From Candidatus Endomicrobiellum mastotermitis (lineage in GTDB: Bacteria > Elusimicrobiota > Endomicrobiia > Endomicrobiales > Endomicrobiaceae), in contig JAISTT010000011.1 of the NCBI GenBank assembly GCA_031272445.1, positions 1-64,000 of the forward strand: a stretch of DNA of 64,000 nucleotides, given 5' to 3'. The notes below the pieces were generated by a model. The model was given only the letters and a program-made list of their open reading frames with translations, made no database searches and was not told the origin of the DNA. The position numbers and the translations under genes were made by a program. Shown here one piece after another: positions 3,501 to 9,211 of this stretch (position 1 is the first letter of the stretch; each line of letters opens with the position of its first letter).

Positions 3501-4670
3501 TCATTTGAACTCTCGTTTTAGTTCATCAACTTTATTAACTTTTTCCCAAGTGAAATCTTCTTCATTCCTTCCAAAATGTCCATAAACGGCAGTTTTGGAA
3601 AAGATTGGTTTACGGAGTTGTAAGTAATCCGTAATACCTTTAGGAGTAAGCGGGAATACTTTTCTTATAATAGGTTCTAACGCTAACTTTGAAATTTTGT
3701 TGTTGGAATGGTGCGTATCAATCATTACAGAAACAGGATCAGCTACACCAATAGCATAAGCAAGTTGAACTGTACATTTATCAACTATACCCGACGCAAC
3801 TATATTTTTCGCAATATGTCTTGCCATATAACAAGCACTCCTATCAACTTTAGTAGAGTCTTTTCCAGAAAATGCCCCTCCACCATGTGCAGCCATTCCA
3901 CCATAAGTATCAACTATTATTTTTCTTCCAGTAAGACCAGTGTCTACAGCAGGTCCACCAAATAAGAATTTACCTGTAGGATTAATATATATTTTTGTGT
4001 CTTTATCAATCAGATGTCCAAGTGTAGGTTCAATAATATTATTAAAAATCTCTTTTTTAGACTTACTCGTTATACTATCCCCTGTTATATCTAAAATTTC
4101 TTCAGTATGTTGTGTTGACAAAACAACAGCATCTATCCTTTTAGGTTGCCAATCTATGTACTCAATGGTTACTTGAGTTTTTCCATCTGGTCCTAAATAA
4201 GGTAAAGTATTTCTCTTTCTTACTTCAGAAAGTCTAATCGCAAGTTTATGTGCTAAAATTATAGGTAAAGGCATAAATTCAGGAGTTTCCTTACATGCAA
4301 AACCTATCATCAATCCCTGATCACCAGCCCCACCGATGTCAACACCCATAGCAATATCTGGAGATTGTGTGTTTATAACGTCAATTATGGCACACGTATT
4401 ACAATCAAACCCTAAGGATAAATTATTATAGCCTATCCTTTTTAAAGTCTCCTTTATAATATCTTTTGTATTAACTCTTGCAGTTGTAGTAATTTCTCCA
4501 CCTACAATAATCAATCCTTTGGAAATAAAAGTCTCACAGGCAACTCTTGCATCTGCATCTTGTTTTAGTATTTCATCCAAAATAGTATCAGAAACTATAT
4601 CACACACTTTGTCAGGATGACCCTCTGTAACAGATTCAGATGTAAAAAAATAACTACGACTTTCTGACAT
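3501..4670 (-). CDS. metK: S-adenosylmethionine synthetase
   Basis: [54 protein letters not shown]. Confidence 0.97.
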
Positions 4671-4774: not shown

Positions 4775-5842
4775 TTATTTCTTAGTACTTTTGTATATTC
4801 TTTTTTCCTTTACAATATCTTCCTCTACACCTTCACCTTTTTTATCAATCCCCCCAAAAACTCTTTCTTTTATTCTCACCTCTATTTCTTCAGTAAGTGT
4901 AGAGTTTTCGGATAAATAAGTTTTCACATTCTCTCTTCCCTGTCCAAGTTTTTCATCTCTATAACTAAAAAATGCTCCTGTTTTCTCAATTATTCCATAA
5001 CTTACACCCATATCTACTAAATACCCAAATCTATCAATGCCTTGCCCAAATATTATTTCAAACTCAGCTTGTTTAAATGGTGCTGCAACTTTATTTTTTA
5101 CAACTTTAACCCTCACTCTATTACCTAAAATTTCATCACCTTTTTTAACAGACTCAATTCTTCTTATATCCAGTCTTACAGAGGAATAAAATTTTAGTGC
5201 AAGTCCCCCTGGAGTTGTTTCAGGACTCCCCCACATTACACCTATTTTTTGTCTTAACTGATTAATAAATATTATTGAGGTTTTTGATTTAGAAATGTTT
5301 GATGTAAGCTTTCTAAGAGCCTGACTCATAAGTCTCGCCTGAAGACCTAAAAAAGAATCTCCCATTTCTCCCTCAATTTCAGCTTTAGGAACAAGAGCTG
5401 CTACAGAATCAACAATTATAATATCAACTGCCCCTGAGCGAACAAGCTTATCAGCAATTTCTAGTCCCTGCTCACCAGAATCTGGTTGGGATATTAAGAG
5501 GCTATCTATACACACACCCAGTTTTTGAGCATATTCAGGATCCATTGCATGTTCAGCATCAATATACGCTGCAATACCGCCTAGTTTTTGCGTTTCGGCA
5601 ATCATACATAAAGCTAAAGTTGTTTTACCTGACGCCTCAGGACCATAAATCTCAATTATCCTACCACGTGGAATTCCACCCACACCTATAGCTATATCAA
5701 GAGGTAAAGCACCGGTTGATATTGAATCAACTTTTTCTTTTAAACGTTTGTCACCGAGTCTCATAATTGCTTCTTTCCCAAAATCCTTCTCAATCTGTGA
5801 AAGAGCTAAATCCAACGCCTTAAGTTTTTCATCCTTTGCCAT
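4775..5842 (-). CDS. recA: Recombinase A
   Basis: [12 protein letters not shown] Walker [39 protein letters not shown]; strong GGAGGA SD upstream. Confidence 0.98.
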
Positions 5843-5903
5843 ACTCTTCCTCCATTTAGTATCAGCTTGTTATTTTGTTCTAAATTTTTTCATAAAAGTA
5901 CAT

Positions 5904-7373
5904 TTATAAATTAATACTTTCATTTCTCTCCACAACATCAATAAGGAATTGATGTATATAAACCATGGCTAAAGTATCCATCGCACAATACTTTAGTAAA
6001 TTACGTTTTGTTTGTTTTATTTTTTTACTACCATACACTCCCATTGCCATAAAAGCGAAAGCAGTAACAGCATCTCTACCATTCTTTATCTTCAAGTGAG
6101 AGTAGTCTAATTCAGGAATCAATATTGGAAGAACTTTTTTTATAGATGAACGACCATGAAAATTTACATCATAATAATTTTTTCTAATAATCAACTCAAG
6201 ATCTACTATCCTTTTAACTATTCCATCAAGTTTTCCAGATAAATCAGGGAAAATATCCATAAGCTTTAAAATAATGTTACGTTCAAAATTGGCATAAGTC
6301 ATTATACTTCCCTCTATATCTAGATATTCAATAAATTTTTCTGTAATTTCACGTCTACAATCCTTTTTTTGATCAACAATATATTCATAATGGTCTATAA
6401 TATTTCCTGCAATGTCAGTTTTATATATTGAAAACTGTGTTAAGAACTGTGAGTAAGGACCAACATGTTCATATAAAGGCAGTGCCGTACTCACTGATTC
6501 AAAATCTAGATAATAAAAGGGTTGTTTTATGTTGTGTATATATGTTTTTAAATCTTTTGAAACATAATTTGCACCAGTCAAAACACAATTTTTAACTATT
6601 TTTTGGGCTTTAGTAAGCTCAAAATCGGATGGAATTTTACAAATAGTATCAATTCCTGATGTTACTAATCTTTCAAGTGAAGCAGTTGAAAGATGTGGTA
6701 GGTCAAATATATGATTTTTAATACCCTTACCTATACAGGTGTTAAATACAGGACAATTCTTGCAATTTTTCTTTAAATAAGGCCTCGGCATATTTTTAGA
6801 TTTAATAATTTCAATGATTTCATCAGAAAGATTTAAAAACTCGTTAATTTTTAATTCAACTTTATCAGTACAATCTAATATTTTAAAAAACCTTGACACA
6901 TCCATACCAAAACGATAATCACTAGATAAGTGAAGGAGAGCATACCTTTGCACGTTTACACCTGCCTTAGCCAAAACCATTGCGTCAAAAGACATGTCAT
7001 TAATATATTTAAATTTGTATTTAGTACTAGGTTTAATTTCAAATAAGGATAATACATTACCATCATATTTCTTAAGTATGTCAATTTTTGCTAAATAATC
7101 AGTCGCAATAAAATAAGCTTCATAAATCGTTTTAACATTAGGATTAAATATCAATTCCCTAGCATATAATGCTGCAACATCAATCTTTGATTTCCATGCA
7201 TTCACACCATTTGAAAAAAGTTTATGTGACATTTCGAGAATAATTTCTCTTTCAAATTTTAAAAATCTACTATTAATCCCTATAAATTTTGGAATTATAT
7301 TTCTTTTTGTCATCCATCCTAGAGTAGGACAACGTAAATAATTGATAAAAATCGCTTTATTTATATACTTCAT
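5904..7373 (-). CDS. DUF2779-type protein: Cas4/RecB-like PD-(D/E)XK nuclease fused to an RNase H-like (DnaQ-like) exonuclease domain
   Basis: N-terminal YLRCPTLGW Cys, ID...LFEIKPSTK nuclease motif, CKNCPVFNTC Cys cluster, then FYYLDFESV...YANFERNIIL...YCAMDTLAMV. Confidence 0.78.
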   Translation of the reverse strand: MKYINKAIFINYLRCPTLGWMTKRNIIPKFIGINSRFLKFEREIILEMSHKLFSNGVNAWKSKIDVAALYARELIFNPNVKTIYEAYFIATDYLAKIDILKKYDGNVLSLFEIKPSTKYKFKYINDMSFDAMVLAKAGVNVQRYALLHLSSDYRFGMDVSRFFKILDCTDKVELKINEFLNLSDEIIEIIKSKNMPRPYLKKNCKNCPVFNTCIGKGIKNHIFDLPHLSTASLERLVTSGIDTICKIPSDFELTKAQKIVKNCVLTGANYVSKDLKTYIHNIKQPFYYLDFESVSTALPLYEHVGPYSQFLTQFSIYKTDIAGNIIDHYEYIVDQKKDCRREITEKFIEYLDIEGSIMTYANFERNIILKLMDIFPDLSGKLDGIVKRIVDLELIIRKNYYDVNFHGRSSIKKVLPILIPELDYSHLKIKNGRDAVTAFAFMAMGVYGSKKIKQTKRNLLKYCAMDTLAMVYIHQFLIDVVERNESINL

Positions 7374-7761
7374 AAATAATTAAGAAATTCCTTCTTTACA
7401 ATAAATGTATGTCATAATAATAAGAATATTTAGAAAATAAAAAGGAAAGAAACTATAATTTTATCTACCATAAAGTTACAAAGTTACTTATTATAGTTAT
7501 AAATTTTTTAACTACTTAAAAATTTTTTTATTCCAAATTAAAACTAATTTAATACTTCTCTTACTTTTTCGTTATTATATCAAAATCAAAATAGCTATTT
7601 TAAACAATTCGACCTTGTATCAAATTTTTCTCCGACTAAATTTAAAATAAGTAAATGAACTAATACTAAATATTTACTACATTAATCGCTATATTGTGTT
7701 TAGAGTTATATACATAATCACAATCAAAAGTGAAATCTTACCATACTTTGCACTTTTATGG

Positions 7762-7767
7762 TATAAT
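7762..7767 (+). promoter_or_regulatory. Extended -10 element upstream of the transporter
   Basis: TGGTATAAT; about 90 bp before the AAAGGAA SD and ATG at 7859. Confidence 0.4.
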
Positions 7768-7858
7768 TTTATTTGTATTATTTCGTAAGTTTCGTAACTC
7801 CAATAAAGTTAGTTAAATAAAATATTATAAATATAAAATAAAAAAAGGAACAATATTT

Positions 7859-9211
7859 ATGTTATCAAAACTCATTAATTGGATGAAGCCTCTTCCAGAC
7901 ACAGAAATTCAACTGAAAGACGAAAAACAAATTGCAAATTTATATAAATTTTGGCGCATAAGAATGTTCTTAGGCATGTATATTGGTTATATAGTGTACT
8001 ATTTTACGCGAAAAAATCTATCATTTGTAGCAACTGCTTTTATGAGAAACGTTGGTATTACAAAAATGGAGTTTGGCATTTTAAATTCACTAGCGTATAT
8101 ATCTTACGGTGTAGGAAAATTTTTAAGTGGTATATTCGCTGATAAGTGTAGTATAAGAACTTTCATGGCGCTAGGTCTAATTGGATCTTCTATAATTAAC
8201 CTCTTTTTTGGATTTCTTTATTCACTGCCTTTTATAACTTTCTTTTGGGGAATAAATGGCGGGTTGCAGTCAATGGGTTTTCCTCCGGTAGCAAAAGGGC
8301 TTGTATACTGGTTTTCTCCTAGTGAAAGAGCAACCAAATGGACATTATGGTCATCTTCTCACACTGTTGGAACTTTTCTCATAGGTATATTAGCGGCTTG
8401 GTGTATAGGATTGGGAGACTGGCGTGCAACATTTTACGTTCCCGGTATAATAGGACTGATAACCGGAATAGTTTTACTTTTTACTTTAACAGATAAACCT
8501 TCTTCACTAGGACTACCTCCTATTGATATCTATCATAATGACACTTTACCTTTAAAAAAACAAACAAAAGGACAAAAGTCTCTTTCCCATATGCAAATTT
8601 TATTTAAATATGTTCTATTCAACCCATTTTTATGGTCACTTGCAATAGCGTATACATTTATATACTTTATCCGTTTTGCCACATTAGACTGGGGTACCGT
8701 ATTTATGACTGAAAGGGGTTTATCGGAAAAAAATGCGGCATTTTTATTAGGGTTTATGCCTCTTATAGGTACTTTAGGAGGCATATCTTCAGGTTGGATT
8801 TCTGATAAATTTTTTAAAGGCCGTTGCGCACCTATTAGTATCATATATCTACTTTGCTTGATTTTCAGTTTGTGGGGTATGTATCATTTCACCAATGTAT
8901 CAACACCATGGTGGCTTATAGCATTATTTCTCTCTCTTGTAGGTTTTTTTGTGGATGGACCACAAAACCTTGTTGGTGGCGTACAAGTTTCCCGTATAAC
9001 TGTACAAGAGTCTATCGGAGCCGCTTGTGGTTTTACGGGAATGTTCGGTTATTTAGGTGCATTTTTATCCGGTATCGGTGCAGCTTGGATCATTGAAAAG
9101 TGGGGATGGCACGGCATATTCATATCTTGCGGAATATTTTGTGTAATGGCAATATTATTCATCATCATTACTTGGAAGAGAGAAAATACTAAACCTATTT
9201 TGAATCAATAG
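7859..9211 (+). CDS. MFS transporter, organophosphate:phosphate antiporter family (UhpC/UhpT/GlpT-like sugar-phosphate transporter)
   Basis: 450 aa, YIGYIVYYFTRKNLSF, GINGGLQSMGFPPVAKGLVYWFSPSERA, DGPQNLVGGVQVSRI typical of the OPA family. Confidence 0.85.
   Translation: MLSKLINWMKPLPDTEIQLKDEKQIANLYKFWRIRMFLGMYIGYIVYYFTRKNLSFVATAFMRNVGITKMEFGILNSLAYISYGVGKFLSGIFADKCSIRTFMALGLIGSSIINLFFGFLYSLPFITFFWGINGGLQSMGFPPVAKGLVYWFSPSERATKWTLWSSSHTVGTFLIGILAAWCIGLGDWRATFYVPGIIGLITGIVLLFTLTDKPSSLGLPPIDIYHNDTLPLKKQTKGQKSLSHMQILFKYVLFNPFLWSLAIAYTFIYFIRFATLDWGTVFMTERGLSEKNAAFLLGFMPLIGTLGGISSGWISDKFFKGRCAPISIIYLLCLIFSLWGMYHFTNVSTPWWLIALFLSLVGFFVDGPQNLVGGVQVSRITVQESIGAACGFTGMFGYLGAFLSGIGAAWIIEKWGWHGIFISCGIFCVMAILFIIITWKRENTKPILNQ

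Follow-up and report, generated by a model that had tools for sequence, protein, structure and literature searches.

A two-domain DUF2779-family nuclease gene beside recA in a termite-gut Endomicrobium symbiont, and repeated loss of its PD-(D/E)XK site in Endomicrobiaceae

The gene at positions 5904–7373 (minus strand) of the window, the whole 64,000-nucleotide stretch of DNA analysed here, encodes a two-domain nuclease of the DUF2779 family in a termite-gut Endomicrobium symbiont. Our open reading frame analysis, Pfam matches and AlphaFold2 model indicate that its 489-aa product is an ordinary member of this known, functionally unproven family; what is new, and modest, is the repeated loss of the PD-(D/E)XK site in Endomicrobiaceae together with the gene context there, a PhoH–PHP–DUF2779 cassette. 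From the observed domains, conserved active sites, predicted fold, neighbourhoods and purifying selection, we infer the activity, polarity, substrate, Fe–S cluster and role of the protein. The explanation we favour as a whole, to which we give an even chance, has a two-domain nuclease trimming single-stranded ends, with a DEDDy-type exonuclease as its engine and a role in turnover or repair.

Results

The 489-aa reading frame compares with a longest frame of 123 aa in 300 shuffles of the gene region. Against the nearest relative, its dN/dS (NG86) is 0.19–0.26, compared with 0.11 for recA and 0.15 for metK, and the DUF2779 gene has therefore been under purifying selection. The next gene downstream is recA (4775–5842, minus strand; Pfam RecA, E 4.7e-137), a genus-limited neighbour, followed by metK (3501–4670, minus strand; identified from the ORF list and synteny), and the order DUF2779–recA–metK is common across the Endomicrobium genus. 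The position of the ORF 61 bp before recA on the same strand, as originally predicted, was confirmed, with recA starting at 5842 on the minus strand. The intervening gap (5843–5903, minus strand) holds a GGAGG ribosome-binding site; a search of these 61 bp for a terminator-like site found none, so that transcriptional read-through from the DUF2779 gene into recA appears possible from the sequence. On the other side lie a 485-bp AT-rich gap (7374–7858) and, beyond it, a divergent transporter gene (7859–9211); upstream of the window's DUF2779 gene we detected neither PHP nor PhoH.

Pfam, conservation, a domain model and Foldseek assign the C-terminal half (residues 285–489; 5907–6521, minus strand) to the RNase H-fold, DEDDy-type exonucleases. 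DUF2779 (PF11074) matches residues 287–410 over the entire profile (1–126 of 126) with E 2.3e-29 and 102.7 bits against a gathering threshold of 23.3, which places the protein in the family, and the same profile matches all 74 homologues that we collected. Every hallmark of the DEDDy class is present (D-x-E, an acidic motif II, Y-x3-D and the RNase H fold), the exonuclease residues being D290-x-E292, E364, D391 and Y462-x3-D466; motif II carries Glu (E364) where Asp is usual. This half is probably an active 3′–5′ exonuclease.

The N-terminal half (residues 1–216; 6726–7373, minus strand) is a Cas4-like PD-(D/E)XK domain according to PF01930, PADLOC Cas4 models, Foldseek (4r5q, 8d3l, 7lw9) and conservation. 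Pfam Cas_Cas4/DUF83 (PF01930) matches residues 95–214 (E 2.6e-7; 31.3 bits, gathering threshold 22.7), and the residues and cysteines of the Cas4-like fold are in place; PADLOC returned generic Cas4 models only, and the protein scores below the cut-off of the Cas4 model TIGR00372. On the minus strand, the codons of the PD-(D/E)XK residues are at 7080–7082 (D98), 7038–7040 (E112) and 7032–7034 (K114). The putative 4Fe–4S ligands are C15 (7329–7331, minus strand), present in 73 of the 74 homologues, and C204-x2-C207-x5-C213 (6735–6764, minus strand), invariant in all of them. The window protein retains both catalytic sites and all cluster cysteines; judging from the conserved cysteines it probably carries a 4Fe–4S cluster, and we lean towards the PD-(D/E)XK half being catalytically active as well.

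AlphaFold2, run on the window protein with retrieved homologues, modelled the whole 489-aa protein with a pLDDT of 93.5 and a pTM of 0.88, and the exonuclease half alone with a pLDDT of 94.5 and a pTM of 0.90. Foldseek related the N-terminal half to Cas4 (4r5q, 8d3l), human EXO5, an Argonaute-associated Cas4 (ACE1) and AdnAB, and the C-terminal half to the Maelstrom RNase H-like domain, Pol III epsilon, ExoI and PolB exonuclease domains, with modest TM scores against solved structures. A sequence search for a solved structural relative found none with the single sequence and weak matches only (E >0.1) with a profile. The whole two-domain arrangement also occurs in predicted giant-virus proteins (TMq 0.65); three uncharacterised giant-virus proteins (BFVD A0A3G4ZWN9, A0A5K0U8I2 and A0A3G5AGZ9) are two-domain matches by predicted fold. 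The original prediction of a Cas4-like half followed by a DnaQ/RNase H-like half is borne out by the agreement of Pfam, conservation across 74 homologues, AlphaFold and Foldseek. The motifs that it named (C15, E112-x-K114, C204/C207/C213, D290-x-E292, E364 and Y462-x3-D466; it did not name D98) are all present, and the half that carries the D-ExK site and Cys cluster, for which it proposed a structural check, is supported by the homologues and the model (pLDDT 93.5).

Our alignment of 74 homologues spans the genus, the family, the phylum and plasmids at 23–61% identity to the window protein; an 80% redundancy filter removed none, and near-copies were excluded by hand. C204, C207, C213, D290, E292, E364 and D391 never vary; C15, Y462 and D466 each occur in 73 of 74 sequences, and D98, E112 and K114 are each at least 90% conserved. 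One or another of these last three residues is lost in 12 of 48 Endomicrobiaceae proteins, for which the tree requires at least nine changes, versus none of the 26 outsiders (Fisher p 0.006, a value that ignores relatedness); D98N and E112K homologues (G009 and G143) are natural examples. The claim that two nuclease activities are retained is only partly borne out: the window protein keeps both sites, but in the family the PD-(D/E)XK residues have gone repeatedly. No exonuclease residue, and none of the three C-terminal cysteines, changes in any of the 48 proteins, and the N-terminal half diverges faster than the C-terminal half within Endomicrobiaceae (mean identity to the window protein 46% vs 60%). 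In the tree, the Endomicrobiaceae sequences form one clade apart from plasmid, viral and other-phylum sequences. Homologues on predicted viral contigs retain the PD-(D/E)XK residues where the region is present and some have lost cysteines, the reverse of the Endomicrobiaceae pattern.

The link to recA is real but shallow. In the Endomicrobium genus, 21 of 30 testable genomes have recA on the same strand and no more than 3 kb downstream; elsewhere in Endomicrobiaceae it is within 3 kb in 1 of 20, and 4–10 kb downstream in some others. The original prediction overstated the recA link, which is limited to the genus and nearly absent from the rest of the family. Genes resembling sugar-nucleotide dehydrogenases/epimerases lie between DUF2779 and recA at six loci (L005, L014, L015, L020, L022 and L024). 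The DUF2779 gene carries a single frameshift in the closest relative (G001) and is truncated in another (G031); recA is kept beside a DUF2779 pseudogene with many stops in G027, and is present in three draft genomes where DUF2779 was not found (G008, G028 and G029). In a 34%-complete draft (G003), DUF2779 is followed after about 210–230 bp by metK (L109:7626-7852) and recA is gone. Since recA without DUF2779 and DUF2779 without recA both occur, neither gene requires the other, bearing in mind that the relatives' genomes are drafts and individual gene absences weak evidence. The gene is dispensable: its retention in a reduced genome, which the original prediction stressed, is true of the window, where it is intact, but several reduced relatives with recA have only a pseudogene or lack it.

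The older, wider and family-wide link is with genes for a PIN-PhoH ATPase and a PHP phosphoesterase, not with recA. Among the 27 testable genomes of the family outside the genus, PIN-PhoH lies upstream of DUF2779 in 19 and PHP in 18, on the same strand and in the same order (19/27). Within the genus, PHP is found in 18 of 30 genomes, PhoH in 12 of 30 (often as a fragment) and at least one of the two in 19 of 30. At four loci (L103, L116, L117 and L127) the upstream PIN-PhoH gene is reduced to fragments, PHP and DUF2779 being whole. Of the two neighbours, the PhoH protein includes a PIN domain and most resembles the RNA helicase PhoH2; the closest matches of the PHP protein are 3′,5′-nucleoside bisphosphate phosphatase and RNase RNM. 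All of these matches fall below NCBI cut-offs and serve as leads only. RNase AM/YciV is a 5′–3′ exoribonuclease (PMC9410882). A search of the window's genome (86% complete) for PhoH and a full PHP gene found neither whole.

Outside Endomicrobiaceae the neighbours are of defence type: GmrSD at four loci, PDDEXK_4 at three (L082, L087 and L098), RmuC at two, and WYL, SNF2 and AAA genes, a purely descriptive tally. Such loci frequently belong to plasmids or predicted viral contigs. The genes for GmrSD, a type IV restriction system, lie beside DUF2779 at L153:6956-9370, L163:952-2694, L165:3829-5985 and L182:7487-9211, in one genome of the phylum and on predicted viral contigs, and GmrSD with DUF2779 is possibly a two-gene defence pair. 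A phage origin was rejected, the matches to phage records being 75-residue fragments in Helicobacter prophages. In one family of the phylum (f13), most genomes encode another protein, about 500 aa long, that weakly matches DUF2779 (profile 23–119) and is perhaps a TM0106-type paralogue.

The original prediction took this gene as its best candidate for an undescribed activity, but the architecture is not new: the DUF83+DUF2779 combination with its predicted 3′–5′ exonuclease was published in 2014, when DUF2779 was classed as family F.17 of the RNase H-like superfamily, presumed 3′–5′ exonucleases, and the fusion reported (Majorek et al., 2014; PMC3985635). The window protein has the same domain (PF11074, F.17) and the same architecture. 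Our literature search on DUF2779 proteins found no biochemical assay of any member, and the accompanying statement that the function is not established still holds. In M. bovis, an insertion in a DUF2779 gene allows normal growth alone and poor growth with host cells, and insertions in NrnA, RecD and HolA likewise cause a growth defect with host cells (PMC7373297). Two related families are distinct. The TM0106 family of RecB-like nucleases (TIGR03491; COG2251, DUF83+RNase_H_2) has the same order of a RecB/Cas4-like and then an RNase H-like part, but the window protein scores 23 bits against a cut-off of 97.45, lacks AAA helicase domains and is not a member. The UU173 family (NF045869) shares the C-terminal half and weakly matches 73 of 74 relatives, but with 67.2 bits against a cut-off of 225 on a 650-position model the window protein lies outside it too. 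A literature search on TM0106 and UU173 found nothing useful.

With Cas4 (PF01930), including solo-Cas4, the protein shares the D/ExK residues, four-cysteine pattern and fold; it differs in its fusion to an exonuclease and in its genome (86% complete), where a search for cas1 found none. With cas1 not found there, and with recA and metK as neighbours, a part in CRISPR adaptation is unlikely. In CRISPR, prespacers are known to be trimmed by nucleases of two types, Cas4 and Cas1-Cas2/DEDDh (PMC10284694). The window protein, like the DUF2779 family, joins both types in one polypeptide, but its gene has no CRISPR context and its exonuclease is DEDDy-type, not DEDDh. It also has the PD-(D/E)XK fold of the AddB/RecB/AdnAB nuclease domain. 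The nuclease domains of AddB and AdnB also carry Fe–S cysteines. A Cas4/AddB-type helicase-nuclease was nevertheless rejected: Pfam finds no helicase domain in the 489-aa protein, which is not an AddB/RecB member.

Discussion

A model that accommodates these data is that the protein trims single-stranded nucleic-acid ends. Because the exonuclease residues have never been lost under selection, the C-terminal DEDDy-type 3′–5′ exonuclease would be the constant catalytic engine; the Cas4-like half, with four cysteines that probably bind a 4Fe–4S cluster, would hold or position the strand and, in the window protein, probably also cut it. In Endomicrobiaceae the gene would belong to a housekeeping cassette with the PIN-PhoH ATPase and PHP phosphoesterase genes, and the role would most likely be general nucleic-acid turnover or repair, not that of a dedicated RecA partner. 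That the protein serves turnover or repair alongside PhoH and PHP, and is dedicated neither to RecA nor to defence, we rate slightly short of an even chance; DNA and RNA are about equally probable as substrate. The role is read from gene context, and the contexts disagree: PhoH/PHP inside the family, and outside it defence-type genes, which act on DNA and speak against our explanation by favouring DNA and defence. The nearest folds of the predicted structure, which include DNA proofreading exonucleases, likewise count against it, as does the window's own genome (86% complete), from which PhoH and full PHP are absent, so that the protein must work without both here. The PhoH–PHP adjacency could also be a transcriptional convenience.

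A gene 61 bp upstream of recA, on the same strand with no terminator-like site between, invites the alternative that the two are co-transcribed and that the protein works for RecA by trimming DNA ends or ssDNA taken in by transformation. The 21 of 30 genus genomes with recA close downstream agree with this, as does the retention and expression of competence and recombination genes in Endomicrobium species (PMC8809381). However, beyond the genus only 1 of 20 genomes of the family has the link within 3 kb, G003 keeps DUF2779 with recA missing before metK, recA persists beside a DUF2779 pseudogene (G027) and in genomes in which DUF2779 was not found (G008, G028 and G029), sugar-nucleotide enzyme genes intervene in several genomes, and the window's genome has another RecB-type nuclease, inside a 933-aa frame. 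We consider RecA coupling doubtful. A defence nuclease degrading foreign or modified DNA, as part of an anti-phage repertoire, is suggested by the GmrSD, PDDEXK_4, WYL, RmuC and AAA genes that the family abuts outside Endomicrobiaceae, in many cases on plasmids or predicted viral contigs. It is unlikely given the conserved housekeeping-type neighbours in Endomicrobiaceae, which form one separate clade and do not have the gene as a patchy island, the lack of cas1 in the window's genome and the generic nature of the PADLOC matches. Decay, finally, would leave the gene intact in the window with little remaining function, like other reduced symbionts; the frameshift in G001, the many stops in G027, the truncation in G031, the several reduced genomes where it was not found, and the loss of PhoH and full PHP from the window's genome all fit. 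The catalytic and cysteine residues are nevertheless all intact and dN/dS is 0.19–0.26, and we regard decay as very improbable.

Within our preferred model of a DEDDy-driven trimming nuclease, we suggest, as a speculation, that in Endomicrobiaceae the Cas4 half may be turning from a nuclease into a non-catalytic Fe–S module that holds the strand for the DEDDy exonuclease within a PhoH–PHP turnover cassette. If true, the cluster function of the Cas4 domain would here be naturally uncoupled from its nuclease function. DUF2779 spans several phyla, plasmids and predicted viral contigs, and apparently none of its members has been assayed; Endomicrobiaceae supply natural PD-(D/E)XK-site mutants with intact cysteines and exonuclease, in which the roles of the three sites are separable.
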